In this document: positions 1 through 39,717 of the stretch, piece after piece
Position numbering within the stretch: position 1 is the stretch's first letter
Layout of the letters: every line of letters begins with the position of its first letter
Source of the DNA: Isotricha intestinalis
Taxonomy: Eukaryota > Ciliophora > Litostomatea > Vestibuliferida > Isotrichidae
NCBI GenBank assembly: GCA_023807065.1
Contig: JAJJLU010000358.1
Coordinates: forward strand, 1-64,000
Direction of reading: 5' to 3'
DNA length: 64,000 bases
Notes under the pieces: generated by a model
The model's database searches: none
Seen by the model: only the letters and a program-made list of their open reading frames with translations
Told to the model about the DNA's origin: nothing
Made by a program: the position numbers and the translations under genes

Positions 1-28
1 ATCCCCAATCCCCAATCCCCAATCCCCA
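1..28. repeat. Telomeric repeat, C-rich strand (CCCCAAT)n
   Basis: Three complete CCCCAAT units (3-9, 10-16, 17-23) and a fourth CCCC at 24-27 open the window, then the sequence becomes ordinary A/T-rich DNA. A C-rich strand reading inward from a left end is the orientation expected of a ciliate-type telomere (G strand ATTGGGG). Known ciliate telomeres are of related form (CCCCAA, CCCCAAAA). I did not see this array anywhere else in the window. The window therefore begins at or very near a chromosome end. Confidence 0.85.
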
Positions 29-13400: not shown

Positions 13401-16400
13401 ACATCGAATGATTTTTATTTAGAAACAATTGATAAAATTGTTATTAAAGATAATGATGGAAATTCAGTTGTTTTTTTTCGAAATACTATTCTTATTCAAG
13501 AGAATAATTATTTTACTTTTTCTGATAATAATAATGAAAATAAAATATATTTAACTTTTATTGCTCATCCTGGAAAAACTTATTCATTACAATTATCTAA
13601 TCAAGAAGGAAGTTCTAAAATATATGAATTTGAAAGAAAAAATGAAAATTTAGATTTTCTTTTACTTAATCCATATTTTTATTTAATAAATAATTCTTAT
13701 ATATCATATCCAAAAATAACAATTTCTGGTGATTTAACATCAAAAATAGAAAAAATATATTATAAAATTGATGATAATGACAGAAAATATGAAGAAAATA
13801 ATATTTTAAAAAAAAGATCAAACAACATATATGAATTTATTCCTCCTAATGAAACAGGAACATATATATTTGCATATAAATTTAATGGTGATTTAGATGT
13901 AACAAAATATTCAATATTAGATATTAAAGTTATAGTTGCTGAGGATTTTTTAGATTTTATTCTACTTCTCCCACCTCCAAATTTTATTTTATCTTCAAAT
14001 GATTTTTGGTTTGATGTCATACCAAGATTTAGAATGGATATTGAAGTTTATATTGCCCAAACTAATAATATTAACAATAAAATTGTTAATTTCACTCATG
14101 AAAAAGGTGTTAGTAATCATGATTTATCTAAAGAAAAAATGAATTTACTTGAAAAAGGAAAAGAATATTTATTATGTGTTAAGGATAAAAACTCTAATAC
14201 TGTTTTATATGCTCAGAAAGTTAGTTTCTCTAATTTTGAAATTGATAGTATTTATTATTATACTGGGTTTATTCAAGTTTATAATGCTGTTTCCAAAATT
14301 TCAGATTTAACTATTTATGATTCATATGGATATTCTTTTGATGTTGATGAAGAATTTCAAGAATTAGATAATGAAAATCATATTTTGTGGATTACTATGC
14401 CAAATGAAGCTTATCCTGGTTATTATTATATTTATTATAATGGAGAAGAATTTGGAAAATTTTTCCTTGTTTATGGTTTGGAATCATTTACTAATTTAAA
14501 TGCTTTTAATATTTATCCCATTTCTGGAAAGAATAATGTAATTATCACTTCTTCAATGTATTATCTTCCTGATATTTTTAGAATTGAAATAATAAGAAAT
14601 GTAAATGATGTAAATGAGAAATTCATTTATACTAATGAAAATATAATATATAAAAATAATGATTATCTTAAATTTACTCTTCCTGAATATAATAATGAAT
14701 TAGAAATACCAACTTATATATTATCTACAATATATGGTTATGATACTTTTGGTGATGAAATTGAATTAAAAGTTGACATAGTTTTAGAATATGATAATCC
14801 AATTGATTTCTCATTGAATAAAAATTATCAAATATCTTCTAATGACAAAGAAAATATTACTTTTTCATTTGATGATAAATACAAAGATGATTTATGGAAA
14901 ATAATGTCAAGAATTTATATAAATGATGAATTGAAAATATTAAATTATGATAAAGGAGAAATTTGTTATTTTTCAAATGTTACTAATGAAGTAAATTGTA
15001 CTTTTATTTTTCCTGGTGAATCAACTCAAATAAAAATAACATATAATGAATTTGATTCAACAGAAACAAATTATACTTACATAATTTATGATTATAATGG
15101 AGAATATTGTTTAATAGAAGGTGAGAATTTTAATTATGCCCTCGATGTTGGAAATTTACCTTTTGATGTTTATATAAATGAAACTTTATTAATAAAGGAA
15201 AATAATGGAATTTATAGTATTTCAAATTCAAATATAACAATAGGAACAAATTATATAATAACTAAAGAAAATGAAAATAGTCAAATTATAAATTTAACAA
15301 AACTTTATTATCATCCTTTTCAAAAAATAGAAATTGATGATTCTACTTTTACAACAAATTCAGGAATAAAATTAATCGTTTCAACATATAATCATTTATT
15401 TAGTCTTAATTATAAAAATTCACTTGATATTTATTCTCAAAATTTAAATGATGGTTCAAATAAAAAAATTATAATTAATGATTGTAATGATATATATATG
15501 AATAATACAATGGCTTATTATTATTGTACTGGAAATTTAAGTGATATTGAAATTGGTCCTTCAAAAATTATTTCTTATGATCAATGTAAAAAAGAAAAAG
15601 AAGTTGGTAATATTGTTATTGTGAATGAAGATTCTCAAAGATTAATTTCTATTTCTCCTGATTTTGTTAATATTAAAGAAAAAAAAGATATTTCCATAAC
15701 ATTAACTTATAGTAAAATATTTGAAAATAATCCTAGTAAAATTTATTTAGTTAATAAAAATACTGAAAAAATTGCTAATGGGAAATATATTGATATTATT
15801 GGAATTAATGAAAGGAATATTACTTTTAATATTAATTATGATTTTATTTCTAAAATAATTCCTGGAAAATATTATATTAAACTTTTTAATGCAAATGATG
15901 AATTAGAAAATAGTAGTTCTGAAACATTATTATTTGTAGATACATTATCTCTATATGAAAAAAAACAAAAACTTTTTGTTTCAAATCAAAATAATACTAG
16001 AATAGGAGTTATTTTTACAAATAATATTTTATTATCTCAAATATCTAAAGTAACTTATAATGATATTGAATTAGAATATAAAATTCATAATGATTTAAAT
16101 AATATTTTAATAATAAATACCACAAACAAAGTTCCTTTATATAAAGAAGGAAATTACACTTTTAAAATATTTGAATCAGGACAATTAAATCCAATAAATT
16201 ATACTGTAGAAACAATGATAAAAACAGGAAGTGAATCAGACATATTATTCAGTCATTCAATTTATACAAAAAGTGAAAATGGAAATGCATATATTGTTAT
16301 ATCAGTTAATGATGATATTTTTTCAATGAGTTATTCTATAAATAAAAGTGAAGTTTCTACTTTTAATAATTTATCACAATTTTGGACTAATACTTTTGTT

Positions 16401-19400
16401 TTGGAAATAAATGATGAAGGTATTTTTAATTTTTCTTATTATAAAGGTTCTAATTTCTCTCAGGAATATCATATTGATAAAGATATTTATCTTGTACAAG
16501 AAAGTGATTTCTTCAATGAAAATTTAAATGATTGTCAAGTTAATTATTGTTCCATTTCTTCTTCTATTTCTCAAAGTGCCAGTCCTGAATTTTGTTTTAA
16601 AAATTTCATTTTGGAAAATCCTAGTTTTAATGGAGTTAGTGATGATGAAATTTATTATGGTCTTCTTTCTATCAATAATTTAACTAAAATAAAGTTTTCA
16701 AATGATAATATTCCTTTAATGGAAGAATCATATTCAAATAAGAATTATATTATTCAAGTTATTAGAAAAGATAAATTAGGTGAAGATGTTTTATTTCAAA
16801 AAAATTTCATTTTCACAGATTTTATATATGAGAAAAATTCATTAATATATGACAATAATTATCTTCAATTTAACTTTTCTTCCCATTGTCAATTAAATTA
16901 TGATAAATTTAAATTAGATGATTCTGAAAGATATGATTGTTCATCATCATTAGAAAATTCAAATAATTATAATTGTAAATATGTAATTGGGGCAGAAGCA
17001 AAATCAAAATACAATCTTACATACGATAATATTTATATTGATTCAGTTTCAACAATAAAAGAATTTTTATATGAAGTACTCTTAAATGATACTAATGATG
17101 GACAAGCAAAATATACTATTAAAATTAAAAATGAAATTTATATTGGAATAAATGTTTTCACAATGATTATTGGAGATAAAGAAGGTAAAAAAGAAGATAT
17201 TATTTTTGATGGTGAAAATATTATTTATGATAGTTATAGTGCTTCTATTGAGGTTCCTGCTAATAAACATATTAAGGAAATTTATTTAAAATCTTTTACT
17301 TTATATAATGGTCTTACTATAGATATTGATGAAACAAATAAATTAGTTTATATTTTTGATAAAGTTCATTCTATTAATACAAATTATTTATTTTCAAATA
17401 AAGATTTAGATAATGTTTCTTTTTCTGTTGAGAGTGAAATTAATAATATATATTTAATTAATGGAGAAACTAAACATTCCGCAGGAAATAAAAATTCTTG
17501 TTTTGTTAATAATATTGAATATGGGTTGAATTATTTAGTAAATTATTATGATAATGTTGTTTTATATACAATTAAATATGGATTTGAAAAAAAATGTCAA
17601 AGTACAAATGAAGATAAAATTATATTTAACTTATATAATGAAGATAATAATTTAAATTTTGGAAATTATCAGATATCATTAAATAATAAAATAAATGATG
17701 AAAAGATTGACACAGAAATTAATTATAAGAATGTAGAAGAAATTGAAGGTTTATTTGTTTATAAATTTGAAATTAATTCTCCTTTAAAAGAAGGAGAATA
17801 TTATATTGAATTTAATGGAACTAAACTTAATAATGATAAAATAATAATAAAAAATGGGAAATCATTTAATAGAACCGGAGAAATCTACACGAATATACAA
17901 AATCAAAATTTTATTATTAAATTTAATGATGATTTAGAAGATGATGAAATAATAAATGACATGATTATGATTATTTTTAATGATGATACTAAAATCAATG
18001 TTGTATGTGATTTATTATTTGATAATATAAAAGTTTTTGGTTGTATAATTTCAGAAAAAATTACAAAAGCAGGTTTATATAAATTAGGATATATACATCA
18101 ATGTGGTCAATTAGTTACAGCAAATGAACTTTTAAATGTTAAAGAATATAAACATTCAATTCCCATTAAAAATGATTATAAATATGATATTAATAATGAA
18201 AATAAAAATTTAATAATTCAACTTTCAAATAATTTAAATGTTTCTTATATTAATTCAATTACATTAATTAAAACTGATTCACTAAATGAAGTTAATATTA
18301 ATATTGATAATTTAAGTGGAGAAATAAGTTCTTTAAATTTAATATTTCCTTCTGAAATTGAATTAGGAAATTATTTAATTAAATTAAAGAATAAAGATGA
18401 AGAATATATTATAACTCCTCAAATTATTATATATGATTCTAATTTTAATATTAAAGATCATTATCCTTATATTAATATAAGTGCTTTTGATATATCTAAT
18501 ATTCATGTTTCTTTTGATGGAAAATATCATCGTAATCAAATTAATAAAGTTTATTTAATTAAAGATATTCAAAATTATAATGGTAGTAAAATAGATATTA
18601 CTGAATATTTTCAATTTAATATTTATAATAATACTTTAACTTTTATTCCAGGATATATTAATATAAATGAAACAGGACAATATCATATTGAAATGAAAGG
18701 ATATCAAACTCTTTTTATTTATTATTTCCACTTAATTGGAATGGCAAATAATTTAAATATTCAAAATTATATTGATTTAACAAAGAATAATAATTATTTA
18801 AATATAAGGAATAATTACTCAGTTTACTTCTGTGAAATAATAAATGATATTAAAAGTGATAATAATTTAATATTTAAAGTTCATTTTTGTCCTAAATCAT
18901 ATTTAAAAATAGGGATTGATCATTCAAAAGAACAACCAAAATTAAATGATGAAAATCTACTTTCAGCAACAATAACCATTGATTATTTTGATAATCAAAT
19001 GATATTAATTTATTTAAATTCTATTTATACAGAAAAATATCATATAAAAAACATACCAAAAATATCTGGAGAGTCATTGAAAACATATTCAATAAATGAT
19101 ATAGATTACAATGGTTTAATAAGAATACAAAAAAATCAAACTATATTAAAATATCCAACTATAGTATTTCCAATAATGAAAACATCTTCATTTGAATTAA
19201 ATTTAAATATCAACACATTAATATATCATTACACTCCACATGGAAAAATAAAACGATCACATCCAATATTAATAAGAGATCCATTAAATTATAGTAATTA
19301 TGAATATACAACATTTAATATAATCAATTGTGGTGAAGATTATATATATAATATTTCTTCTTCTTCAGATATTAAATGTGTTACTTGTAAAGATATTAAC

Positions 19401-21899: not shown

Positions 21900-23573
21900 T
21901 TATATTTCTTCATTTTTATAATTATTAAAAAATTCTCTTATTTTAGTAAAAATTCTTTTTTCAGATTCTCCATTTTCATTATAAACATCAATAAAAATTC
22001 CTCCTTTCATAATATTTTTTTTATTTAAACTAAAATTAATTTTAAACCCTTCATCACATTCATCAAGAGAAACATCTTTAATATTTTTATATTCTAAATA
22101 AAACTTCAATTCTTTTTTAACTAAATTAACAATGAAAAAACCTTTTAAAGAAAAAACAATTAAAAAATCATCTTTAGAAAAATTAGAATAAAATTCACAA
22201 TCATTGAAAATGAAACAATTATCAATTTTTAAAATATTAATTTTTCTAATGACAAAATAAACTACTTCACTATGTTTTAAATTAAAGGTTTTAATGATTT
22301 TATATTTACCATAAAAAGCTCTTGAGAAACTTCTTTTAGGTAAAAAAGAATAATTAAAATCTCTATTAAGATTATTTTTAATTCCTTCAGTAGTTTTACT
22401 AACTAAATCAAAGACTCCAGAAATAGGTTTTAAAACAACACCTCCTAAACCTTTAATAATTCCTTTAGAAAATCCTTTCAAATTTTCTTTTTTTGCTCCT
22501 TCAATTGGTTTTCTAATTACATCAGTTACTCCATGAAAAACTCCAATAGAAAAATTAGAGAATCCATATCCAATACCTTGAATAATATTTTTTGGTTTTT
22601 GAGTAATTTTTTTTCTTTCTATTTCATTTATATATTTAGTATCTCTACTTAATAATAAAAAAGATTTACTTATTCCAGATGTTATTTTACTTGTTGAACT
22701 TAAAGTTCCAGAAACTGTATTTTTTGCTAAACTTAATGTTCCATCAAATAATCCTATTGCTCCTTGTAATGGTCCTTTCATTATTCCTTTTGCAGGTTTT
22801 ACAAATAAATCTTTCACTCCATGACTTAATGATGAAAATAAATTTAAAGGATCTCCTATTATATCTATTGATGATACTAATTTTAATATTTTTCTCATAA
22901 AATTCTGACGATATATATTTATTATTGCTGTTGTTAAATTATGAATATTACCTGTAAAATTATTTATTATACATCCATTTAAATGAATTTTCACTCTTTC
23001 TATATTTGATACTGTGTTTAATAATGAAGGAAGTATTTCTGAATTTGATGTTGATGATGTTAAAAGACTTGAAAATATTTTATCTTTTGTTAAATTTTGA
23101 AATGTTAAAGAAAATAATAAAGGAGATAAATTTATTTGAGATATATATACTAATTTTTCCTTCTCTTGAATTGTATTTATATTCGTTTTTGTTATCCATT
23201 CTGGCATAAAATAACTCTCTTTTATTATTATATCTTCTTCTTTATTTGTTAAATTAAATATACCTTCATCTTTTTTATTATAAAATATTGGATTTATGTT
23301 TGTTATTATTGTATTTAATTCTATTGTAATATTTTGAATAAAATTTAATAATCCTTTTACTACATTACTTTCTATTGAAAGAATAAATGATTGGATTAAA
23401 TAATTTAATAATGATATTTTTATTATGTTATTCTTTGTATTCATTGTTATTAACATTGCAAAATTAAAAAAAGGGTTTGTGTCATTTCCACTTATTGTAT
23501 TTGAAGTACTTATTATTGTATTATTATTTGAATTTGTAGAATTTTTTATTATTTTTTGATTATGATATTTTAT
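21900..23573 (-). pseudogene. VPS13: VPS13 C-terminal fragment (lacks the N-terminal lipid channel)
   Basis: From the first ATG at 23456 this frame codes 518 residues. It matches the C-terminal region of VPS13 bridge-like lipid-transfer proteins: a LLNYLIQSFILSIE-type segment, Gly-rich amphipathic helices of the ATG2_C/VPS13_C type (GIMKGPLQGAIG, GIIKGLGGVVLKPISGV; residues 205-370), and a C-terminal PH-like region. The frame stays open for 39 codons upstream of that ATG, to a TAA at 23576-23574. That extension contains NPFFNFA, which belongs to the VPS13 fold, but no start codon. The 5' end is therefore missing rather than merely short. The missing N-terminal part lies at 31024-39129 on the other strand. 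If transcribed it would make only the membrane-anchoring end of the protein. Confidence 0.8.
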
Positions 23574-23755
23574 TTATATTTTTTTTTTGTTTTTTTTGTT
23601 TTTTTGATTGTTTTTTTTTAATATATTTGTGTGTCTTTCTTGAATTTTAATGTTTATTTATTTCATTAATTTATTTTAAATTTTCATTATAATTGAATTA
23701 TATTAAATTAATATAATAAATAATTATAAATAATTAATTACTGTTTATTTAAAAT

Positions 23756-26700
23756 TCATTCAATTTTTTCTTTCCATTTTTTAAAATAATCTGAATTGAA
23801 AATATCTTCTTCACTTGGTCTCTCATTTGCTTCACTTTCTGTCATCCAGTATATTAACTTTGATTCTTCTGGATATTTCTCTTTAACTTTATCCACAATT
23901 ATTCTTTTATTTCTTAAATTAATAATTGATTCTCTTCTTTCCATTAATGAATAAAAACATCCACACATTTCATATAATATAACTCCACAAGCATAAATAT
24001 CTACTTTTTCATTATATATTTTTTTATTAATTTGCTCAGGTGATAAATAAAGTGGAGTTCCCACAACATCCTCTTTTATAATTTGTCTATTATTTATTTG
24101 AGTTGCTAATCCAAAATCTCCAATTTTAATATCTTTATCATTTATAAATATATTAGCTGGCTTTATATCTCTATGAATAATTCCTCCTGAATGTATTTTA
24201 CTTAAACTTTTTAAAATTTGATGTGTAAATCTAAAAATAATTTTCCTATCTATATTATTCCCTTTGTCAGCATGCTCTTGAATAAATTGGTCTAAAGGTA
24301 ATCCATCACAATATTCCATTTGTATAAAAAAATATAAATTTTCCTCTAAAGTTGAATTTTTTTTACTAATTATACTTCTTTTAGAAAATAAATTAGAATC
24401 ATCTCTAAATTGGATGACTGGTTTTGGGATTTTTTTATAATTTTTCTCAATTTTTTCATCATCACTTGCTGCACCATCAATATCAAATATTTTATTCACA
24501 GAATTATTTGAATTACTTTGAATTTCATCTTCAAAAATAATTGATTTTTTATTATTATTTTCATCATTACTATTTATACTTTCATTAATTTTTGATAAAG
24601 TAGAAGGTATATTTTTGTTAAATGAATATTTTTCTGATATTTTTTTCAAATTAGAACTGTTTCTTAAAGTATTTGATAAAAGAGAAGATGAATCATTGAG
24701 TTGAGAAAAATATTTCGTAGCAGAACCTAAATTTCCATCAAACCAACAAGTTTTATATTCAACTATATGTTTGCTTCTTATTTTTGTCATTGTTTTAGCC
24801 TCAGTAACAACATTTTGTTCAGATAAATCAGATAATTTTATAATTTTTATTGCATATAATTCTTCATCAATTTTATGTTTTGCCTTTAAAACAACTCCAA
24901 ATCCTCCTTGACCTAATTTTCTTATATCTGTAAAATCTTTATCTAATCTCGTTTGTTGAAAGTTTTGATTATTAAATTGATATATATTATATTTTTGTTT
25001 TGTTTTTGAAGTTGTTGATTTATTTATTTTGGAATTATTATTTATTTTAGATGTATCTTGGGAAAGATGGTTTTTCGAAAAATAAACACTAGAATTTTCT
25101 CCCTTATTTGGTTCATAATCATCATCAAATGATATTGATTCTTCTTCTTTATCATTATTACTTTTATTATTACTTTTTTTTGAATAATCATTTCCAAATA
25201 TTATACTTTCTGAATTTTTCATATCTTCAGTGTATTTTCTGTTGTTTTTTATAAATGAATTTGTTTTCTCTAAGTTTTTTAATGTATTATTCATTGAATT
25301 ATTTTCACTTAAAAATAAATTTTCATTATCTACATTAAAGTTTTTAATTTCTTTATGAATTTTTTCTATTTCTTCTGTTTTATTGAAAACTGCTTTTGTT
25401 GTTTTCTTTGTTTCAAAAGTTATTGTATTATCTTTTTCATTTTCTCTTGAATTAATAGTAATTAAATCAATTCTTTGTTTTTGATGTTTTTTAATATTGT
25501 CTTCATTCATAATCGAAGTGAATTTTTGAAGATATTCATATGTGTTATTTTCATTATATAATATAATTCGATTTTCTGATTTATTTTTGTTTGATATAAA
25601 TTCTTTTTCTAATAAATCATTTTCATTTGATTCAGAATATTTATTTTGAGAAATACTTTGATTTAAGTTTTTTTCAGAAATTGACTTTATATGTTGTTCT
25701 TTTAATTCATTTATGTTATTATTCTTAAAACCATTAATTTCAGATTCTGAAGAAGAAGTTGTTTCAGCATTATTTTTAGAACTATTATCCTTATAATATT
25801 TAAATAATATAAATAAATGCGTTCCGAACATCATTCCAAATACAATTATAAGAGCAATCCAATTTTTTTTTAAATAATTTTTAATATCATTGAAATATAT
25901 TAATGATTTCTTATTTATAATTTCACCTAAATCAATTTTTATTTTTGATTTTTCATTAAAATATTGTTTAATTTCACCCAAAGTATTATCTTTATTCAAT
26001 GATTTTTTAATTTTTTTTATTTCTTTAACTCCTTCAAAATTTTTATCATAAATTTTAACAGGAACATTATCATCTTTATAATAAGAATGTATAGTCATAA
26101 CTTCATTTGAATTTATTCTATTAACTAAATAAGGTAAATTCTTTAATTGACGAAACTGATTATTAATATAATTTTCTTTGCATCTTTCATTTCCTCTTTG
26201 AATAATGACATCACTATAACTTGCTTTCCAAATTTCTTGATCTTCATTTAGACAAGATAAAATATAATCTACTCTTATAACAGTTAAAATATTAGGAATA
26301 TTTAAGGATTTTTTTTTAGAAAAATTAATAATTTCTTGGTTATCACTTTTTTCAATAATTCTTCCAGAAATAATATCAATTATGAAAAGTGAAGTCTTTT
26401 TATTTCCTATTAATAATAAATCATTAAAAGTAAGAGGTGATTGATTCACTAATTCTTTTAATGAAATTTTTAACTGTGTTAAATTTCCATTTTCATAAAT
26501 ATAAATTTTATCGTCTAAAGGTAATAATAAAATTTGATTTGTAACATTTTTTCCAATTATATCTGAAGTTATTAATTCATCTCCTAATGAAATTTCCCAT
26601 TTTTTTTCATTATTTGAATATGCATGTAAAAATCCATCTTTTGTTGTTATAAAAAATAAATCTGCTTTTTCAACTAAATAATTTCCTTCTTTGTTTTTCA

Positions 26701-26845
26701 ATGAATTTGGAAGAATTGATGGAAGTGTATTCTCTTGTGTTTTCACATTATCCATCAAATATATTATAATAATCAAAAAAAGAATGAGAAAGAATTTCGA
26801 TTTTGGAAATAAAAATTTGATTATTTGTTCTATAATATTTAACAT
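23756..26845 (-). CDS. PERK-like ER transmembrane eIF2alpha kinase
   Basis: 1029 residues. A hydrophobic signal/anchor lies at 13-31. The N-terminal domain (45-300) is beta-rich with PQQ/propeller-like repeats (FFITTKDGFLHAYSNNEKKWEISLG), like the lumenal sensors of PERK and IRE1. A membrane helix lies near 337-357. After a long disordered insert comes a protein kinase: GQGGFG near 643, YAIK, HRDIKPAN near 890, DFGLAT, GTPLYLSPEQ. A long insert between beta-4 and beta-5 and a helix-G segment reading MERRESIINLRNKR are characteristic of eIF2alpha kinases. Lumenal sensor plus PEK-type kinase fits PERK (EIF2AK3 family), which phosphorylates eIF2alpha under ER stress. All catalytic motifs are intact. 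Confidence 0.85.
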   Translation of the reverse strand: MLNIIEQIIKFLFPKSKFFLILFLIIIIYLMDNVKTQENTLPSILPNSLKNKEGNYLVEKADLFFITTKDGFLHAYSNNEKKWEISLGDELITSDIIGKNVTNQILLLPLDDKIYIYENGNLTQLKISLKELVNQSPLTFNDLLLIGNKKTSLFIIDIISGRIIEKSDNQEIINFSKKKSLNIPNILTVIRVDYILSCLNEDQEIWKASYSDVIIQRGNERCKENYINNQFRQLKNLPYLVNRINSNEVMTIHSYYKDDNVPVKIYDKNFEGVKEIKKIKKSLNKDNTLGEIKQYFNEKSKIKIDLGEIINKKSLIYFNDIKNYLKKNWIALIIVFGMMFGTHLFILFKYYKDNSSKNNAETTSSSESEINGFKNNNINELKEQHIKSISEKNLNQSISQNKYSESNENDLLEKEFISNKNKSENRIILYNENNTYEYLQKFTSIMNEDNIKKHQKQRIDLITINSRENEKDNTITFETKKTTKAVFNKTEEIEKIHKEIKNFNVDNENLFLSENNSMNNTLKNLEKTNSFIKNNRKYTEDMKNSESIIFGNDYSKKSNNKSNNDKEEESISFDDDYEPNKGENSSVYFSKNHLSQDTSKINNNSKINKSTTSKTKQKYNIYQFNNQNFQQTRLDKDFTDIRKLGQGGFGVVLKAKHKIDEELYAIKIIKLSDLSEQNVVTEAKTMTKIRSKHIVEYKTCWFDGNLGSATKYFSQLNDSSSLLSNTLRNSSNLKKISEKYSFNKNIPSTLSKINESINSNDENNNKKSIIFEDEIQSNSNNSVNKIFDIDGAASDDEKIEKNYKKIPKPVIQFRDDSNLFSKRSIISKKNSTLEENLYFFIQMEYCDGLPLDQFIQEHADKGNNIDRKIIFRFTHQILKSLSKIHSGGIIHRDIKPANIFINDKDIKIGDFGLATQINNRQIIKEDVVGTPLYLSPEQINKKIYNEKVDIYACGVILYEMCGCFYSLMERRESIINLRNKRIIVDKVKEKYPEESKLIYWMTESEANERPSEEDIFNSDYFKKWKEKIE

Positions 26846-27696
26846 TTTTTTATTTATTTTTTTTTATTTTTCTTATAGAGACTTTTTTAAATTTTAATTT
26901 ATAAAAAAATATTATTTTTGATGACGTGTTCTTTTGTAAATTATTTTAATTTTATTATTAGTATTTTTATTTGAAAATGGAATGAATTTTTAAGTAAATT
27001 AGTTTGTTATAATACAACCTATTTTTTAAATATGATTTTCTAGAATAATGAATTTATTATTCCATTTATTAAATTTTCTTAAATTTTTTCATCAATAAAA
27101 TAAATAAATTACATTTAATAAATTTCATAATTAATTATATGATTTTTTTAAAAAAGAATACAATCATAATTATTATAATTCTTTTGAAATTAAAAAATTG
27201 TAAGAGAATATTAAAATTTTCACATTAACAAGTAATTTAGAAATCTTATTTATTCTAATTAGATTAATTTTTTATTTCAATGTTAAATAAATTTATCCTC
27301 CTTTTACAAAATATTTTTGATTTAATTTTATAATTTTTACAACTTCCAAAAATAGAAATACCTAAAAACAAGCATTAATTAAGATTATTCTATTTAAAAA
27401 TTGTATTTTTAAAAATGAATGAAGAAAACAAAAAAAAAAAAAAATTTTGTATTTATAAATTTAACTTATAAAAAATAGTTACATTTATATTAATATATAA
27501 CTCGATCAAAATAAAAAAACAAACTGATTTTCCAAAATCTTATGAGCAAACTTTCATTTTTTCAAAAAAACAGCAAAAATCCAAAAACAAAAAAAACTAA
27601 AAATTAGTGTTTAAAAACGGATATATCAAAGTCAGAAAAAAAAATTAAATTTTAGAATCCTATAAAACCATGAAAATAAAAAAAAAATAAAAAATA
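26846..27696. other. 851-bp divergent intergenic region
   Basis: This lies between the PERK-like kinase (minus) and a secreted Cys-rich gene (plus) and must hold both promoters. No supportable coding or RNA gene is seen. The half nearest the Cys-rich gene (27480-27690) is slightly richer in C and G than its surroundings. A TGACGTG element lies at 26922-26928 (separate entry). Confidence 0.5.
26922..26928 (+). promoter_or_regulatory. TGACGTG element upstream of the PERK-like kinase
   Basis: TGACGTG, the core of unfolded-protein-response/CRE-type bZIP sites in animals and fungi, lies 77 bases upstream of the kinase ATG, written on the strand opposite to the gene. In DNA this A/T-rich a seven-base word with four G/C bases is uncommon, although one chance hit per several tens of kilobases is expected. 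Whether ciliates use such a site is not known to me. Confidence 0.2.
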
Positions 27697-28074
27697 ATGA
27701 AAAAATTAGCAATAGCAGCCTTCGCACTTTTTGCCTTCTCCTCAGAAGCTCAACTTAGAAAAAATGCATGCGTAGCAAAAGGAGGAAAATGTACTTTTAA
27801 TGCAAGTTGTTGTGGAACTAATGTTTGTCTTTCTCAAAGTGGAAATGTATGTGGACCTCATGTTAAAACTGGTTATGCATGCGGAGAAGACGGTGAATGT
27901 GGTGACAAATCTTTTTGTGATTATGCTAAATCAACTTCTACTAAAAAAGTTTGTATTCCAAAATATAACAATAATACCAAATGTAAAAAAGATAAACAAT
28001 GCCTTTCTGGACATTGTAATGGTAATTTAGGTGGAATAAGATCTGGAACTTGCAGAGCTTCTGCTACTTCTTAA
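27697..28074 (+). CDS. Secreted 14-cysteine protein, copy A
   Basis: 125 residues beginning with a clear signal peptide (MKKLAIAAFALFAFSSEA, cleavage expected near 18). The mature part has 14 Cys with spacing C-6-C-5-CC-4-C-7-C-9-C-5-C-5-C-11-C-9-C-5-C-4-C-11-C, implying a disulfide-knotted secreted protein with seven possible bonds. Copy B at 30411-30755 has the same pattern on the opposite strand, except for a seven-residue difference in one loop. Base composition is visibly less A/T-rich than the neighbours. No named family is certain; a colipase/Dickkopf-like or knottin-like fold is possible. Function unknown. Confidence 0.75.
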   Translation: MKKLAIAAFALFAFSSEAQLRKNACVAKGGKCTFNASCCGTNVCLSQSGNVCGPHVKTGYACGEDGECGDKSFCDYAKSTSTKKVCIPKYNNNTKCKKDKQCLSGHCNGNLGGIRSGTCRASATS

Positions 28075-28305
28075 ATATTTAATGAGTACTTAATATTTTC
28101 TTTTATATTATTATAAACTTTTAGGTATTTTACTTATTTTTTGTTTTTTCAAATTTTTTTATTTTAATATTCAAGTTTGATATACAAAATGACAAAAAAT
28201 CTTATATTAAATTAAAATATTTTTTTTGGAAACTAAACATGACAATTCATCAAAACATTTAGAATTAGAAAAATAATAAAAATTATAAAAATAAAAAATA
28301 ATTTA

Positions 28306-29961
28306 ATGAAAAAAACTATAAAAAGAATATTATTAAAATGTGATTTCATATCTCCAGAAATAACATTATTTTACAGAGGAATAGACTCTCATTCTTCAAT
28401 TTTTTCAGGAATTCTTTCAATTATATTATTAATAGGAATAATAATACTAACAATATATCTTTCAGTTGATTTGATAAAAAAGGAAAATCCAACTTCATTT
28501 TATTATTCAAAATATATAGAAGAAATAGGATCATTTCCTTTAAATTCAACTCATCTTCTTCATTATTTAGGAATGTACTCTTCATCAAATGTAGAAATTA
28601 AAATAAATACTAAAGCAATAAATATTATTGGTGTCAATATTAATGATGGAAAATTTTTAAAGAATACAAATGCTTCTAAATATTCTCATTGGATTTATGA
28701 AAATTGTGAAGATTCAGATTTAGGTGATTATATTAATAAATTTGATGATAAACAAAAAACTAATTTTTCTAATTGTTTATGTATATCTAAATATTATGAT
28801 TTAGAAAATAATAGAATTATTAATAAAAATGATGAAGATTTTGTATATCCAACTTTAAGTCATGGAGCCTCTCATTCAAATAATTTTGAATATGGAGTTT
28901 ATTATCAAAAATGTCAAAATAATACAATAATAAATAATAATAGTTGTTTCTCTGATAGTGGAATAGAAAAGTTTTTAGAAACAGTAATAGGTTATGAAAT
29001 TTATTTTATTGATCATAGTATAAATGTAGATATATATAAAGAACCAATTTTATATTCAATTCATAGAATAACAAGTGAAATAAATTCAAATTCATTTGTT
29101 TTAAATCACTTAAATTTCCATCCTGCAATTTTAAGAACAGATGATGGAATTTTTTTGGATACTGAAAAAATAGAATCCACATATACTTTTGATTACAATG
29201 AAAAAATAACACATTCAGATAATTCTATTCTTGGTTCATTTAATTTTTGGATACAAAATACTCAAGTTATTTATGATAGAACATATAAGAAAATTCAAGA
29301 TATTGCAGGAGGAGTTGATGGTATTGTTGAAATTGTTATGTTAATTGCTAAATTTATTAATAATATTTTATTAGGTGGATATTTGACTTTAAAAGATTTT
29401 TCTTTTGAAATAGAAAAAAATTTAAATATAAAAAACAATAGAATTAAATTAACTTCTCCTTTCTTTTATGGTCAAAAGGTAAAAAAATCTAATAATAAAG
29501 AATTTGATAATAAAATACATGTTACTAGAACATTAAATTCAAATAGAAGTTTAGTTAGAAGAAACACATATTTTATAACAAATTCAAATTATAATGAATT
29601 GGAATTATCAAAAGCTTTAACAAATACAATATCACTTAATAAAAATATAAAATATAAAAAGAAAAAAAAATTAAACTGGTGTTTTTATCTATTAAATGAA
29701 ACAAAAATAAAAAGATTTGAATATGTTGAGCAATTAGATAATAAAAGAGAAGAAATAATAAGTGAAGAAAAATTAATTGAAATATTTATGAATGTTGAAA
29801 GAATAATAGAAATGTTAAAAAGAGATATGAATTATTATTCTGACTCTGTAGGCAATGATACTAAAGAAGCAATTGAAATTAAAGAAATAGAAAGTGAAAA
29901 CAATCAAAATGACAGTCATATTGATTATATTCCTTCTCCATTAAATTTAAATAAAAGTTAA
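28306..29961 (+). CDS. Ciliate-type two-helix membrane protein
   Basis: 551 residues. A short cytoplasmic N-terminus is followed by a membrane helix at about 33-55. Then comes an ectodomain of about 270 residues with Cys and N-glycosylation sites. A conserved-looking block NFWIQNTQVIYDRTYKKIQDIAGGVDG sits just before the second membrane segment (about 335-360), and a basic cytoplasmic tail follows. The Y-x-R-x-Y-x-K-I-Q-D-I...GG block recalls a large family of putative transmembrane proteins in ciliates, from memory. The biochemical role of that family is unknown to me. It lies between the two inverted Cys-rich paralogues. Confidence 0.65.
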   Translation: MKKTIKRILLKCDFISPEITLFYRGIDSHSSIFSGILSIILLIGIIILTIYLSVDLIKKENPTSFYYSKYIEEIGSFPLNSTHLLHYLGMYSSSNVEIKINTKAINIIGVNINDGKFLKNTNASKYSHWIYENCEDSDLGDYINKFDDKQKTNFSNCLCISKYYDLENNRIINKNDEDFVYPTLSHGASHSNNFEYGVYYQKCQNNTIINNNSCFSDSGIEKFLETVIGYEIYFIDHSINVDIYKEPILYSIHRITSEINSNSFVLNHLNFHPAILRTDDGIFLDTEKIESTYTFDYNEKITHSDNSILGSFNFWIQNTQVIYDRTYKKIQDIAGGVDGIVEIVMLIAKFINNILLGGYLTLKDFSFEIEKNLNIKNNRIKLTSPFFYGQKVKKSNNKEFDNKIHVTRTLNSNRSLVRRNTYFITNSNYNELELSKALTNTISLNKNIKYKKKKKLNWCFYLLNETKIKRFEYVEQLDNKREEIISEEKLIEIFMNVERIIEMLKRDMNYYSDSVGNDTKEAIEIKEIESENNQNDSHIDYIPSPLNLNKS

Positions 29962-30410
29962 AATTTAATCCTTATGATTTTTAATTTAAATATAATTTTA
30001 AAAGTAAAATATAATTTCTATAATAAAGAATTTTGGAGATAATTTAAAATATAGTTTTAAAGTAATATTTTAAGAATTATAATAAGGTAATATTGTATAT
30101 TTTTTGATTAGAATTTTACAAATTTTTTCCAATGAGAAAATAACTTTATTAAAATTTACGCAATAAATAAATTAATTAAAAATAAACTTTTTAAAAATTT
30201 TAAAGGCTTAATTATCCATATATTCCCTCTAAATAATGAAAAATAATCAATGAATATATATTTTAATAAATCAATTCAATTTCAAGATAAAAAATCCAAA
30301 ATAATAAAAAATAAATAATATTAAAATTAAAAGAAAGAAATTTTCAAAAATATAATTACCATTAAAAAATTCCTTTTTTAAAATTTTAAAAAATGAATTT
30401 AAAAGAAAAT
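29962..30410. other. 449-bp convergent intergenic region
   Basis: A/T-rich DNA between the stops of the two-helix membrane protein (plus) and Cys-rich copy B (minus). No coding frame, RNA gene or repeat is recognised. Confidence 0.5.
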
Positions 30411-30755
30411 TTATTTGCATTTTCCATTTTTAACTCCTCCCCAATTTCCTTTACAAGAATCAGATTCGCATTGATAATCACGTTTGCATTTATGACCAGA
30501 TGAAAAAGGAGCAGTGCAAACACCATCATAGCAGAAATTAGGATCAAGACATTCTCCATTTTCTCCACAATTTTGACCAACACTTAAATGAGCTCCACAT
30601 ACTTTTCCATATTTTGAAAGACATACTCTGTTTCCACAACATTGAGCATTAAATGTACATTTTTCTCCACCCATTTTACATGAGGTTTTGGCTTTTAATC
30701 TTGCTTCTGTGGTAAAAGCAAATAAGGCTATTGCGGCAATTGCTAATTTTTTCAT
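30411..30755 (-). CDS. Secreted 14-cysteine protein, copy B
   Basis: 114 residues with signal peptide MKKLAIAAIALFAFTTEA, nearly identical to copy A. All 14 Cys are conserved and every inter-cysteine interval matches copy A except one loop, 4 residues here and 11 in A. Shared blocks include GEKCTFNAQCC and GENGEC. Outside the signal and Cys framework the proteins have diverged, so this is an old duplication or one under diversifying change. It faces copy A in inverted orientation with one gene between. Presumably secreted into the vacuole or medium, or surface-bound; function unknown. Confidence 0.75.
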   Translation of the reverse strand: MKKLAIAAIALFAFTTEARLKAKTSCKMGGEKCTFNAQCCGNRVCLSKYGKVCGAHLSVGQNCGENGECLDPNFCYDGVCTAPFSSGHKCKRDYQCESDSCKGNWGGVKNGKCK

Positions 30756-31023
30756 TATTTTTTTTTTTTTTCCAACAGATTTATAGTTTTGAAGTTATTT
30801 TTTTATTTTTTTTATTTTATACGTTTTTTTATTTTTTTTTTGTTATTTTTTTAAATAAATTTTTATTCAGGATATTATTAATTCATTTTATTCAGTTATT
30901 TAAAATTAATTAAATAAAATTAGATATTAATCGTGATATTTTATAAATATTATTAATCATTAAATTAGTATATATTATATCATTAATAATTTAAAATTTT
31001 TTTTATAATTAAATAAAAAGAAA

Positions 31024-34000
31024 ATGTTAGAAGGTCTGATTGAAAAATTAATAAAACTATATTTTGGAGATTTCATAGAAGGTTTAGATGAACAAAAATT
31101 ATCAGTGGGAGTAAAAAAATTAAAAATAAATTAATATAACAATATAGTTATGGTCAGGAAATTTAACATTAACAACAATATCAATAAATAAAAAAGCAAT
31201 AAATGATTTAAAATATCCTTTTAAAATGGAAAAAGGATTTATAAATGAATTAATAGTAAATATTCCATGGAAGAACAATTTTTCAATTCCAACAGTAATA
31301 ACAATAAACAATGTAGAAATAATATTATCTTTAATTCCAAAAGAAAAATGGGAATTTTTAGATTCTATTTCAGTAAAATCAAAATTAAGACTTTTAAAAC
31401 AATATACAAAAAAACAATTAGAAGAATTAAAAGAAAAAATTGAAGGAGAAAAAAGTAAAAATTACTTAGATAAACTTTTTATCAAAATACTTGATAATCT
31501 TCATATAATTTTTAAAAATATTAATATAATTTGTAAAGAAAATGAAAATTCTTTTGGAATTAATTTAGATGAAATTGTTGTTGTTAATACAAATAGTAAT
31601 TTTGAACAAGTATTTATAGATAGAAGTAAAGAAGAAAAAAAAAATAATGAATGTGATAAAGTCAAACAAATATTTAAATTATTATCAATTTCTGGTTTTT
31701 CTGTTAATTTAAATTTAAATAATGAAGGTGATATTCCTATAATTAGACCTTTAAATTTAGATATTAAATTAACTAATAATTTAGATGATAAAAATTTAAA
31801 TTCTGAAAATGAAAATGCTGTTTTTAATATATTTATTAATTTACAAAAATTTGATTTAAATCTTACTCAAAATCATTATGCTTATATTATTAATTTAATT
31901 AATTTTATTTTTGTTTATCAACAATTTCAATTAAATTATTATAATTCAAATAAATTTCATTATTTTAAACCAAAAAATGCAAATATGGAAAATAAAAAAG
32001 AATATTGGAAATATATAATTAATATAGTAAAAAAGCAAATAAAATATATAAAAAATAATGATTTAAATGCATTTAAAATTCCTAATGAAAAATTTGAAGA
32101 ATATCATAATAATTTTATGTTACTTTATCCCAAATTTTATTATAATTGTATAGAAGTAGAAAATAAAAAAGAAATAACAAATAAATTAAGTTCAGAAGAA
32201 ATAAATCAATTCAAAGAAATAGTATATAATTCTGATATAAAAGATTTAAAAAATTGGACTTTAGCTTGTTTAGAAAAAATATATAAATTTATAAAACAAG
32301 GAAAAAATAATAATGAAGATGAAAAAGATGATTCTTTTTTTGGTAAATTTTTTAACAAAAAAAATATAGAAGTTACTTCACAAGAAAAAGAAAAAATTGA
32401 AGAATTATTTAAAAAAATAAATGAAGATTATAGTTTAATTCCAATCAATCAAAACGAAAATTATCCTAAAATTAAAATTGAATTTAAATTAGATGAAGGA
32501 ACTTTTAAATTTATTATGTCACCTAAATTAAATAATGATAAAAGTAATAAACTTGAAGAAGGATTTATAATTAATTATAAAGAATTATATTTTTCATATA
32601 TTGTAATGAAAAAAAATTCAGAAATGAAAATTAAAAGTACTTTAAAAGATTTTGGAATAAGTTTATTTAATAGTGTTTTTAATAATATAACAACTTCAAC
32701 TAATATAACTTTTAAAGAAGATAATAATAATGATGTAAAAATATGTGAATATTTTTTTATTTTAAGTTTTATTCAAAATAACGTTTCTAATGAATTTGAT
32801 TTAAAAATTTTTTCTTTAAATCTAATATTTAATCATATTTTAATTGAAAGAATTATATCTTTTTTCTCTGTAAAATATTTAAATGAAAACTTATCTAATA
32901 AAGCTTATGAAAGTTTTAATAAATTTAAAAGTGATACAGCAAATTCTTTAATAGAAAATAAAAATAAAATTAGTATTATAATTTTTCCTAGAAAATTTTA
33001 TTTACCAATAAATAAATTTGATATAAAAACTTCAAAAATGATAATTTTTAACACAGGAAAAATTCAATTTACAAATGAAAAAGAAGAACAAAATAAATTT
33101 ATTTTAGAATTAGATTCTTTTACAATAAATTATAATAGTACATTTTTATTTTTAGAAAGAGCTTCATTTAAAATGAATATATATTTAACACAAACAATTT
33201 TAATAAATTTCACAATTGAAGATATTAAATTTAATATAAATTCACATATTTTTACATTATTTATTTATTTCTTTGAAATATTTAATCCTTCAAAAGATAT
33301 TTGGGCAACTTTAAATAGTAATGATAAAGAAATAAAAATCAATGCAAAATTTGTTAAAAAGATTAAAAAAAAAAACACTAATAATTTAACATGGGAAGAA
33401 TATTTTGCTATTTTAAGTGGAGGTTATATATATTTTTATAAAGAATATGATATTAAAAAAGAACAAAATTACGAAGGATATTTTTATTTAAAAGATACTC
33501 ATATTATTGAAAATTCAAATGTGATATTTATGAAAAATAAATATGCAAATATTAATTTATTATTTGAAGATGAAAAAGAAAAGGAAGAATTTAAAAATAT
33601 AATAAATGAAAGAATAGTAGAAATGAAAATATTTAATAATGAAGAAAACGAAGAAAATGAAGAAAATAAAATAAAGGAAAAAGAACAATCTAAAATATTA
33701 GAAGCAAAAATAATTTTTAAAAACTTTAGTTTATTCATATATGGAAATAATACTCAAATTCAAGAAAAAGCAACTCCATTATATTATATTTCATCATCTC
33801 TAATAAAATTAAAGGGAAAAATAGATGATTTAGATAAAAGTATAGAAGCATCAATAAAAGATATTGAACTTGCAGATTTAAGTCAAAAATATAGAAAATA
33901 TAATCCAATATTATGTAATAAAAATTTAATAGAAAATAATAATGAAGAACAAACTTTATTTGATATAAAAATATCTTTGATTGATATTCATTCTCCAAAA

Positions 34001-37000
34001 TATAAAAATATTCAATATGATGTAAATGTTGAAGTTGGTAATGTTACTTTACATTGGTGTCCGGAAATAATAAAAAATATAGTTTCTTTCTTTATTCATA
34101 ATGATATTGAAAAAAGTAAAATTGAAGAAGAAATATATAATAATAGTATTGGAAATACTAATTTTTTAAGTGTTAAAGATACAAACACTCAAAGTGGAAT
34201 TAAATTAAAATGCGATAAAGAAAAATATATATATATTAATTTCAATAGTTCTTTTAAAGGAATTAATTTAATTTGGGTTCAACCTATATTAAATATTAGA
34301 ATGAGTTTAATTACTTTCTCAAGAAGTACTTTTCAAATAGAAATGACTGTTGATCATACTATAATAAAAGGAAATTTAGGTAATACTGAAATTTTTGATT
34401 TAACTAATTATCCTTATAAAAATGATGAAAATAAAAATTTAAAAAATAATAATATTAGTTTTAATAAAAGAAGAATTTTCGGAAGAAATATTATGAATAT
34501 TAATAATAATAAAGATAAATTCTTAATTAAATTTATTTATCAATCAATGTATAATTGGTGTCCTTTATATAAAAATGATAATTATTTAAGTTCTGTTGAT
34601 GTTATTGTTAATTCTGTTTATTTAATTTATATTCATGAAATTTTTTATAGAAATTTTACTTATTTTACGAATTTATTTCTAGGGTCACTTTCTGCGAATA
34701 AAGAAACAAAACAATTTATTTTTAATCATTATAATATTACAATACCAAATGAAAGAGATATTGATTTTATGAAATTTAACATTAAATTCATTTCTCCTAA
34801 AATTATACTTAAACCAAGATATAGTTTTACAGATGAATATTATTTTTTTGAATGTAGTCAAATTACTATTAATGAAAATTACCAAACTATTTTAGGTAAA
34901 TTATATAATAATCCAAATGAATATCGTTATTTAACTACTTATCAATTTAATATTGAAAATTTAGGAATGAAATCTCAATTAGATTCTTCTTATGAATTAA
35001 TAAAAAACATTAATCCAATCATTAATATTCATGTTACTGAATATACTGATAGGGATTTAATTACTTATAGTAATTTAGATTTTGATTATTCTTATCAATT
35101 TGATTTATCTTTTAATGAAAAAATTTTTGTAAATTTTAAAAAAGAAGATTTTACAAAATTTTTCAGAATTTTAGATTTAAATATTTTATATACTGATTAT
35201 TTAGATAAAGAATATGATTATTTAGAATTTAATGATTTAATTAATTCAACTTATACAGATTCAAATAAGGAATTATTTGATAAATATAATGATATAATAT
35301 GTAATACTTTTATAAAAAATATATATTTAAAATTAGAGATAGATAAAATAACATTTATAGACTTTGAAATATCATATATGTTAATATCATTATTCAGAAA
35401 ATTAAACCAAAACAAAAACTTACATTTATCAATAGGAGAAATAAGTTTATTTTACACAAAAAAAGGAAAAGATAATAAAGAAAAATTTTTCATGGATAAC
35501 TCTTCATATAATTGGAAAAAAAATGAGGAATATATAAATTCAATGTCAGAAAAAGTGGAAAATTTCACAATAATAAAGGACTTAACATCAAATGATAAAA
35601 TATACAATCAAATAAATTCAAAAATTTTAATATTTTCAAATTCATCAAAGCAATATAATATAACAATATCAAATTTTAAATTATTATTTCAATATAACAT
35701 AATAATGTATTTATATGATACATTTATAAATGGATTTCCAATATATATAGATGAAAAAAATTTGCCAAATGATTATTCTTCAAATGAAGAAGATTTACCT
35801 GGTTATTCAGTTTTATTAGAAATTAAAAAGCCTTTAATAAGTATGTTATCTACTGGATTATCTTTTAAAGAACAAGAAACTTTATGTTTAACAAGTGAAA
35901 TAATTATTGGAATGAAAAAAGAAAAAATTAGCAAAATTAAAGAAACAATTATTAATAATATTATTAATGGAGAAAATTATAATGATAATTGCTTTGATAT
36001 TTATTCTTTAAATGTTTCCTTTTTTGATATTTATCCTTTTATTTCTAAATTAAATGATGATTATGATAGAAACAGAAAAATAATTGATAATTTTTTATTT
36101 TCTTATGAAAGTAAACAAACAATGCAGATTATAGATTTAGAAAGTAAAAATTATTTAATTAAAACTAATGGAAGTTTAAACATAGATAAAATTTCAATTA
36201 GATCATCTTATAGAGATATAATTTTCTTCATTAAAATAATAAAATTTAACATAGAAAGTTATTTAGAAATCAAGAATTCAGTAAATAAAATATCAACAGA
36301 AAAAGAAAACAATAATGTAAAATTAATAGAAAAAAAAAAAATAAATCAAGATTTATTTTCATCAAATTTTACTTTAGTTTCACAAGGATTTAATTTAATA
36401 TTAATAGATGACCACACAAATACATTTTATCCTTTTTTATCAATTTCAGTTTCAGAATCAAAACTATTATATGAATTTATAAATAAATATTCAGATACAA
36501 TAAATATAATTGCAATAATTAAAATATTTTGTTATAATTATTATGCTGGAATATGGGAACCTTTATTAGAAAAAAGTAAATTATTAATTGAAATAATGAA
36601 TGATAAAAGTGATAATAAAAATTTTTTTAAAGTTTTTCATATTAGTTCATTAAATTTAGATGAAGGAAATGATAATATTATTAATATAAATTTATCTGAT
36701 TTAGTCGTTAGTTTTTTATATAGAACCTTATCAAGTTGGATTAATAAAATCAAAATGTTTTATAATGAAAAAGTAGATGATTCAATTCAAAAAGCAAAAA
36801 TTTCAAATCATTCTATTTTAAATTATACTGGGAAAGATATAAATGTATTTAAAAATAATATTTTATTAACTAAATTAGAAAATGGAAAAAGTTTTGATAT
36901 TGAATATTTCCAAAAATTTGATAAAAAAAATTCAAACTCATTTATGATTAAATCAGATATAAATTCAAATAATAATATAATAACTTTTGATTTCATTGAA

Positions 37001-39129
37001 AAAAATCTTAAAATAAAAAACAATTCTTTAAAAATAGACAATATGCAAATAAAGCATCATTATTTAGAAATAAACAACATATTTTCAAATAATAATTATA
37101 ATTATATAATATCAAAAGTATATTTCAAAGATTATTCATTTTTAAAAAAATATATTTGTTTCTACAGTCCAATAACATTTAAAAACAAAACAAAATATTC
37201 TCTTTTATTTACTTGTTCACAAAAACCTTTTCAAACTTTAAATTTAGAAATTAACCCAGGAGAATATTCTGGAATTCCCTTTGAATATATTAATGGAACA
37301 ATACATATAAGTTTAAAAAATAATAATTCAAATCCAAAAATTTTTCGATGTTCATCTTTTTTAAGTGTTAATAAAATTTCTGATGAAATTAGATTTGATA
37401 ATATATATTTATTCTTTAAAAAAAGTTCAGAAGAACAAGTCATTGATATTATGTTACCTTATTCAATTTTAAATTGTCTTCCTTTTGATATTTCTTTAGT
37501 TTTAAATGAACAAAATGAAATGTTTAATATTCTTAAAGGAGAAAAGCAATTAATTTCTTGTGTTTCTGCTAAAAAAATTTTAAAAAGTTATGTTTATATA
37601 TATAATTTTCATACTAATAAAGATTTTATTATTTATAATCCAAATTCAAATAAAAGTTCAAATTCTACTATTAAATTATATAATAATGATAAACAAGAAA
37701 TTAATATTTGTACTCAGTTAATAAATAATAATAAAGATTCTGTTTATTGTATTGTTTTCTATGCTAGAAGTTTAATTATTAATCATTCTGGTTTATTATC
37801 TGATAACATTAAATTTTATTATCTTGATGATAATGATAAATGTATTCTTATTGCTAATCAAATTTTTAATTATAATTTCTTTATTTTTAATGACCAAATT
37901 TATAAATATTTAGTTATTAAATATTTTGGAAAAAGCGGGAAAGAAATTTTTATTTCTAATAAAATATCTATTAATGCCATTGGAACCACTAATATAATTG
38001 AATTATTAAATCAAAATAATAATAAAAGAAAAATTGAATTTATTTTAGAAATTAAATTATCTTTAATTAATCCTTCTCTTGATATGTTTACAAATATTTT
38101 AAAATTAGTTCCTAAATTTATAATATATAATAAATTAAAAGAAGATATTAATGTGAATATGATAGTGGAACAAAATGAAAATTATAATATTTTAAGTAAT
38201 AGTAAAATTCCTCTTTTTAATTTTAACTTTGATCCTTATTTAAATTTAATTCAAATTAAACCAAAAAAAAATAAAGAAGATTATAATTTTAGTTCTCAAT
38301 TTCCTTTAAATTTTTGTTCTGGTTTTCAAACAGTGAAATGTTACAATAAAAGAGAAAATAAGAATAAATTTATAAACATTGAAAAAAAAATAAATGATTT
38401 ATCAACATATTTAATTATAACAGAATCAACAATTGATAACTGTGAAATAAACATAGAAAATTTATCAAAAAATACATTTTGTCAATTTTATCAACAAAGT
38501 TATATAAATAATAAAATAACATTAAAACCAAAAAGTAAATCAATGTATGCTTTTGATAACTTATTAGATAAGAAAAATTTATTAATAAATTTTATAGATA
38601 AAAATGGGATTTATTATTCAAATACATATTATTATGAAATTAATGAAGGAAAAGATAATTTTAGTGAAGTAATCACTTTAAAACATCAAATGTTAAATAC
38701 AGGACAACAAATTTTAATAACTTTTTATTCTAATGATGGTTGTAAATATAAAATAATAATATCTGATTATATTGAAAATAGAACTTTTTATAAATATAAT
38801 ACTATAGAATATAATTTTTCTTTTCCTTCAATTGGAATTAGTTTAATTGTTGATAATAGACATTCAATTGGAGAAGATTATAAAAGAAAAGAAATATGTT
38901 ATATTTACTTAGATGAAATAATATTATATGATAAATATATTTTAAATTTAATTAATGGAAGTATTCAAAATGATATTCAAATAATAATAAAAGATATTGA
39001 AATTGATAATGTATTTTCCTTAATAAAAAATTACCCATAATTTTATTTTCAAAGAAAAGATTAGAAGATTTAGAAGATATAAGTTTAAGTAGTTCAGGTA
39101 ATAATAATTCAAATATAATAAAATTATGA
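31024..39129 (+). CDS. VPS13: VPS13 N-terminal fragment, three exons
   Basis: Exons 31024-31110, 31148-39010 and 39055-39129 give about 2674 residues. Exon 1 begins with the chorein start (MLEGLIEKLIKLYFGDFIEG). Exon 2 resumes with LWSGNLTLTTISI and reaches VNIPWKN, the hallmark order of VPS13 N-termini. Then come the long beta-rich lipid-transfer groove, a PH-like insertion at about 758-850 (TWEEYFAILSGGYIYFYKE), and a VAB-type region at about 2000-2400. The coding frame ends at DIEIDN plus 24 residues and TGA, just where VPS13 proteins run into their C-terminal ATG2_C/PH part. That part sits at 21900-23573 on the opposite strand. VPS13 moves bulk lipid between membranes at contact sites; without its C-terminal anchor this product is probably impaired. 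Confidence 0.85.
31111..31147 (+). other. 37-nt GT-AG intron in VPS13
   Basis: GTAAAAAAATT...CAATATAG. Removing it joins GGA (codon 29) to TTA in phase 0 and restores the conserved VPS13 N-terminus on both sides. Without removal the frame ends at a TAA inside the intron. Confidence 0.85.
39011..39054 (+). other. Probable 44-nt GT-AG intron in VPS13
   Basis: GTATTTTCC...TTTTCAAAG. Removal joins AAT to AAA in phase 0 and extends the protein by 24 residues (KRLEDLEDISLSSS...) past the TAA at 39038-39040. The extension has the codon style of real coding sequence. The evidence is weaker than for the first intron because this end is poorly conserved in the family. Confidence 0.6.
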
Positions 39130-39717
39130 AAAAAGAAAGAAAATTGAATAAAAAAATTAAACACAAAGATGGGAAACAAAGGGAGAAAAGAAAGAGGAGA
39201 GAAAAAGGATGGAAAGTGATGGATATTTTTTAAAATTAAAGATATTAAAGAAAATAAAAGATTGCATTTATTTTGGGTTAATATGAGTGTGATATTTAGG
39301 GCCATTGAGAGTGAGATATTTGCAGTGATTGGGATTGATATATTGAAGGGGTTGTTCCATATTTGGAGATTGATATATTAGGAATGATATTTTATAGGCT
39401 ATTATAGACGAGAGGAGAGATATATTTAATTTAATTTAATTAAGGTAAAGATATTAAAATCTTATATAAAAATTGAATCCCCTTCTCCCTATATAGCCCC
39501 ACTAATCACCCTAAAAATAGTATTTTCTCTCATACAAAATATCATAATCCCCTTTTCCCCCAAAAATATGATCATATTTTACCCAAAATATCTCACTCCC
39601 AATCTCCCAAAATATTGGTCTCCACTCCTTTTTTTTACTTTTTTATTGATTTAATTATATTTTCTTTTTTTATGATTATTTTAATTTTTTTTTTTAATAT
39701 ATTTTTTTAATTATTTA
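39130..39717. other. Intergenic block with mirror-image G/C strand skew
   Basis: In 39181-39420 I count about 66 G against 8 C. In 39478-39630 I count about 51 C against 6 G. The flip is centred on an A/T spacer at about 39421-39470. An 18-nt arm at 39304-39321 recurs inverted at 39586-39603 with one mismatch. The 12-mer GATTGATATATT occurs at 39333 and 39368. No coding frame is seen. It is less A/T-rich than other intergenic DNA here and lies immediately beside the right-hand VPS13 breakpoint. Confidence 0.7.
39304..39603. repeat. Imperfect inverted repeat, 18-nt arms
   Basis: The left arm ATTGAGAGTGAGATATTT (39304-39321) and the reverse complement of 39586-39603 (ATTGGGAGTGAGATATTT) agree at 17 of 18 positions, about 265 bases apart. 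They bracket the skew switch. Confidence 0.7.

Follow-up and report, generated by a model that had tools for sequence, protein, structure and literature searches.

In the window (the whole 64,000-nt stretch of Isotricha intestinalis DNA that was analysed), two parts of what looks like a VPS13 gene lie on opposite strands. This raises the question of whether one gene has been cut by an inversion, whether two genes are naturally separate, or whether the arrangement arose during assembly. The reading we favour, at a probability of roughly one half, is a recent and real two-break inversion of about 15.6 kb that cut VPS13, in preference to a flip of the assembly.

The window begins at the left end of a chromosome, with four telomere repeats in its first 28 bases, and has an overall GC content of 18%. 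Long open frames extend across it under the standard genetic code, so a code-6 ciliate reading was dropped. An excerpt of a report on the trichostome ciliate Muniziella cunhai gives (CCCCAAT)n telomeres together with the standard code (PMC11316547). Since the window combines a telomere of this type with the standard code, as in that trichostome, we read it as a macronuclear chromosome end, apparently the left end of a chromosome of Litostomatea/Trichostomatia type. The ciliate origin guessed in the preliminary description is backed by the same two characters. The features needed below are listed here by position, P0001 and P0016 being the two most informative homologous proteins.

1..28, plus strand: four telomere repeats of CCCCAAT type, left chromosome end
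21900..23546, minus strand: VPS13 C part, 545 of 548 residues identical to residues 148-695 of P0001
23547..39114, no strand: segment of about 15.6 kb, flipped relative to the intact gene, judged from the geometry of the VPS13 parts against P0001 and P0016
23547..23755, minus strand: left junction, lying between the stop of the kinase gene and the C part; rich in A on this strand, it is taken as half y of the second break site and contains the reading IKYHNQKII
23756..26845, minus strand: protein kinase gene (Pkinase, 5.5e-49)
27697..28074, plus strand: small cysteine-rich protein (Dickkopf_N, 2.3e-06; DUF7107, 3.3e-05)
28306..29961, plus strand: 551-aa protein, no Pfam match at E 0.01
30411..30755, minus strand: second small cysteine-rich protein (DUF7107, 3.1e-05)
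31024..31110, plus strand: VPS13 exon 1; the spliced reading MLEGLIEKLIKLYFGDF... matches PF12624 (1.6e-24)
31111..31147, plus strand: 37-nt GT..AG intron predicted from sequence, whose removal joins the frames
31148..39037, plus strand: VPS13 N part, exon 2, 2630 open codons, 81% identity to P0016 over the 1130 residues searched
39038..39114, plus strand: last stretch of the VPS13 N part, downstream of a one-base frameshift; homology stops at ...SGNNNSN
39115..39190, plus strand: right junction, A-rich and taken as x, the outer half of the second break site; tail IIKL, stop at 39127-39129
39160..39640, no strand: unusual non-coding DNA that turns from G-rich to C-rich and contains a degenerate inverted repeat, adjoining the right junction

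The plus-strand gene starts with an ATG at 31024, and its main frame is open over 31148-39040, with a stop at 39038-39040. Its first 179 spliced residues matched the VPS13_N (chorein) domain of Pfam above the cut-off (86.2 bits, cut-off 80), which is the N-terminus expected of VPS13; without exon 1, the N frame gave only a PH match below the Pfam cut-off (E 0.0022). A second VPS13 intron at 39011-39054 was considered and dropped, because P0001 and P0016 code through this stretch; it therefore holds a frameshift and no intron. The gene at 31024-39129 had been described as VPS13 from its chorein start to just before the C-terminal region, and this is confirmed with two corrections: the frame shifts by one base after 39037 and so is not continuous to 39129, and the homology ends at 39114.

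At the break, the minus-strand part lacks a start codon; its first ATG lies at 23456. Searched alone, it reached ATG2_CAD in Pfam at an E value of 0.0025, below the cut-off, and no match was found in phages. The family profile A1, a 13-row alignment with the window's own pieces among its rows, matched PDB chains of VPS13C and VPS13A in their N- and C-terminal regions, the C-terminal matches covering 3234-3655 of VPS13C and 1086-1543 of VPS13A. Together with the Pfam result, these matches confirm the VPS13 identity first proposed for the plus-strand gene. The minus-strand frame 21900-23573 is likewise the C-terminal region without a start, as proposed, except that its upper bound has to be moved, VPS13 homology resuming at 23546. 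The window thus holds the elements of the VPS13 family of bridge-like lipid transfer proteins (VPS13A, VPS13C): the same VPS13_N start, a long chain, a C-terminal region like the solved ones and about 3200 residues when whole. Unlike VPS13A and VPS13C, its chain is cut before the C-terminal region.

Homologous proteins indicate that the two parts belong together. Searching proteins with the minus-strand frame gave 15 matches, and the sequences of 12 of these were read. The best match, P0001 (695 aa; a cluster of 33 member sequences, judged as a cluster), begins within the N part and runs to the C-terminus in a single chain, with 96% and 99% identity to the two window pieces. The last 116 codons before 39038 are identical to its start (116/116), and the stretch 23546-21903 differs from it at three residues (545/548 identical), two of these differences being peculiar to the window. 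P0001 alone had no Pfam match at E 0.05; at 99% identity, it probably comes from the same species as the window. P0016, which appears to be the protein of a relative, is full-length and uncut (3193 aa), and its linker resembles that of P0001 without a break. A search with the N part gave 17 matches, and the 10 long ones were aligned, leaving out P0018, P0024, P0025, P0027 and P0030-P0032 (1674-2769 aa). All 10 extend over the end of the N part, and in 9 the alignment also takes in most of the C part (404-532 of 537 columns); P0026 covers just 59 of the 537.

Since P0001 and P0016 are continuous across the junction, the split in the window is derived and not natural: by sequence comparison, most of the relatives examined have VPS13 in one chain, and in the window it is cut at 39114 / 23546. 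Set against a near-identical protein and relatives, the two pieces are one gene, broken and flipped. The preliminary description had held the pieces to be a single gene with an intact product of about 3200 residues, and P0001, which has both in one chain, and the length of P0016 bear this out. Its own refuting case, that homologues might always have the parts as separate genes, fails on the 9 aligned proteins that carry both in one chain. That the pieces are naturally independent genes, or that the C part is an old paralogue, can accordingly hardly be true. Each piece does form its own open frame, but P0001 matches both in one chain, 9 of the 10 long relatives are uncut, the C part begins without a start codon, and P0001 and P0016 would both have to be chimeric, in two species, which is very unlikely. 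Trans-splicing of the two pieces was dropped as superfluous, the relatives being continuous. No relative with flanking DNA was found when P0001 and profile A2 were searched against viral_contigs and genome_contigs. Rfam searches found nothing. No account of this case was found in the literature on VPS13 in ciliates or on ciliate inversions with long reads, judged by titles and abstract openings.

The break falls within the low-complexity, Asn/Ser-rich linker of VPS13. About 75 bases ahead of it, the frameshift after 39037 costs one residue of P0001; in the shifted frame, 39040-39114 keeps 25 P0001 residues with one K/E difference. Five P0001 residues are then absent from the window, and the match continues with KNSTNS at 23546. 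Flipping the segment between about 23.55 and 39.11 kb therefore joins the parts head to tail, as had been proposed, with ends that fit within five codons of P0001. Because the VPS13 ends fit so closely, both junctions stem from one broken site, whose two halves are present on opposite strands, as in a simple reciprocal inversion. IIKL, following 39114, and IKYHNQKII, preceding 23546, occur in neither P0001 nor P0016 and, on this comparison, are tails that do not belong to VPS13. The in-frame ATAAAA shared by the two ends, previously taken as an old junction, is thus spurious, no relic of the original join. With the ends corrected, the longest string that they share is the 9-nt ATAATAAAA (39115-39123, plus; 23544-23552, minus), a length reached by 13% of 3000 composition-matched random pairs and so no better than chance; this microhomology was also dropped as a relic.

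The second break site would be made up of y and x. Both are rich in A (60 A and 14 T in y, 52 A and 12 T in x), each on the strand expected from a reciprocal inversion. A skew as strong as this was reached by 103 of 6218 (1.7%) other overlapping non-coding 80-nt stretches on either strand, in a test in which x started three bases within the gene and the non-coding regions were delimited by hand. The matching A-skew, the one observation that bears on the point, suggests that y probably lay beside x in the old order; it is equally compatible with a flip of the DNA and a flip of the assembly. A promoter test was uninformative: genes were expected to have T-rich upstream regions and the C part to lack one, but the 17 starts tabulated showed no such rule.

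The inverted segment holds four further frames, in agreement with the four genes counted there before. The two small cysteine-rich proteins, which are probably secreted, are encoded by genes inverted to each other within the segment, both with DUF7107. The gene at 30411-30755 is clearly higher in GC than its surroundings.

In the inversion that we favour, two double-strand breaks would have occurred in AT-rich DNA, one in the Asn/Ser-rich VPS13 linker with the loss of about 15 bases and the other in the A-rich tract downstream of the kinase gene. End joining the wrong way round would then have produced both junctions at once, depriving the N part of the C-terminal region and of its own stop, and the C part of its start. 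Such a cut parts the N-terminal and middle regions from the C-terminal region and, going by what is known of the family, this copy should not work: it very likely makes no working VPS13. Intact copies are present in other samples, and the same polyploid nucleus may contain some too. The N frame is still open over its 2630 codons, so the break, if real, is recent.

We infer that the flip is in the DNA itself rather than just in the assembly, and that it arose by end-joining repair. The main competitor is an error in which the contig broke at the VPS13 linker and the A-rich tract and the piece was reinserted flipped, the true chromosome having an intact VPS13; this is a serious possibility, close behind the inversion in probability. 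Assemblies tend to fail in low-complexity, A-rich DNA, and both break sites are of this kind. A public sequence at 99% identity has the intact form. One frameshift and one amino-acid change fall in the 26 codons next to the break and none in the 116 before them, and this clustering within 80 bases of the join fits a poor-quality contig end. Against an error, there are no N characters anywhere in the window and neither join is marked by a gap. No inverted repeat that is both long and of high identity was found within 3 kb of either site; the 7 inverted matches there are AT-rich, the longest measuring 177 nt at 69% and the closest 26 nt at 92%. What usually makes assemblers flip a segment is thus not seen. 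Consensus quality can be gauged in the gene at 10464-21824, in which 36 of 2108 residues differ from its homologue P0034 without an indel in the 2108 aligned codons. The consensus is therefore good at least there, so that on either reading the frameshift close to the break stands out. The window has the two joins that a balanced inversion leaves; a single reciprocal inversion would account for the pair, a lone chimeric join or molecule for one only. According to an excerpt of a study of multiple displacement amplification (MDA), inverted chimeras mostly have overlaps of 5-8 nt and join sites from 0 to more than 5 kb apart, the distances peaking at 250-300 nt (PMC4595205); here the distance is 15.6 kb. 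An MDA chimera as the sole cause was dropped, as it should yield one join and not two lying 15.6 kb apart.

Alternative forms of the chromosome offer another explanation: different copies would carry the segment in either orientation, as two isomers in the macronucleus or as a scrambled germline order left unprocessed, with VPS13 made from one only. In ciliates the macronucleus is polyploid, and in some of them scrambled genes, among these ones with inverted segments, are rearranged. The 9-nt repeat stands at both ends in a pointer-like orientation. We consider this explanation improbable, given that the repeat does not exceed chance, that the intact protein has different residues at the join, and that the contig carries the telomere type given for a trichostome macronucleus in the excerpt of PMC11316547. 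It is more doubtful still that both orientations coexist in one litostome cell, the 15.6-kb flip switching VPS13 between whole and cut. The likeness to scrambled ciliate genes with inverted segments lies in the two parts of one gene in opposite orientation; unlike them, the window has a telomere, a pointer not beyond chance and one form seen. The favoured two-break inversion has more in common with known gene-disrupting inversions, namely two joins, gene halves on opposite strands, a small loss and homology not beyond chance, but differs from them in being read from assembled sequence, and on an apparently somatic (macronuclear) chromosome.

If real, the inversion would mean that a widely conserved lipid-transfer gene can be removed from one chromosome version, and it would be a clean marker for structural differences among macronuclear copies in a gut ciliate. 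If it is an artefact, it is a warning that gene order in such AT-rich assemblies should be claimed only with reads to back it. In both cases, VPS13 as a gene is nothing unusual and is uncut in most of the relatives examined.

The stretch at 39160-39640 has features of its own. GC content is 25% over 39112-39717, compared with 8-19% in ten other gaps. Its inverted repeat spans 30 nt at 87% complementarity, with a local score of 40, where 300 local shuffles reached 37 at most; the whole stretch folds no better than shuffles (z -1.16). A G-rich repeat motif had no match in viral_contigs. As guesses, the stretch might be a mobile-element remnant or an old chromosome-end fusion.

Two other large genes were observed in the window. 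The single frame at 10464-21824 encodes a 3786-aa membrane protein with an EGF-like stretch, seen by eye, towards its C-terminal part. A protein search with residues 2400-3786 found two relatives, P0034 (98%, on a 10,115-base contig) and P0035 (31%), and these two matches showed no linkage to VPS13. The 4185-aa frame at 44698-57255 contains long internal tandem repeats, with periods of about 60 and 117 bases.
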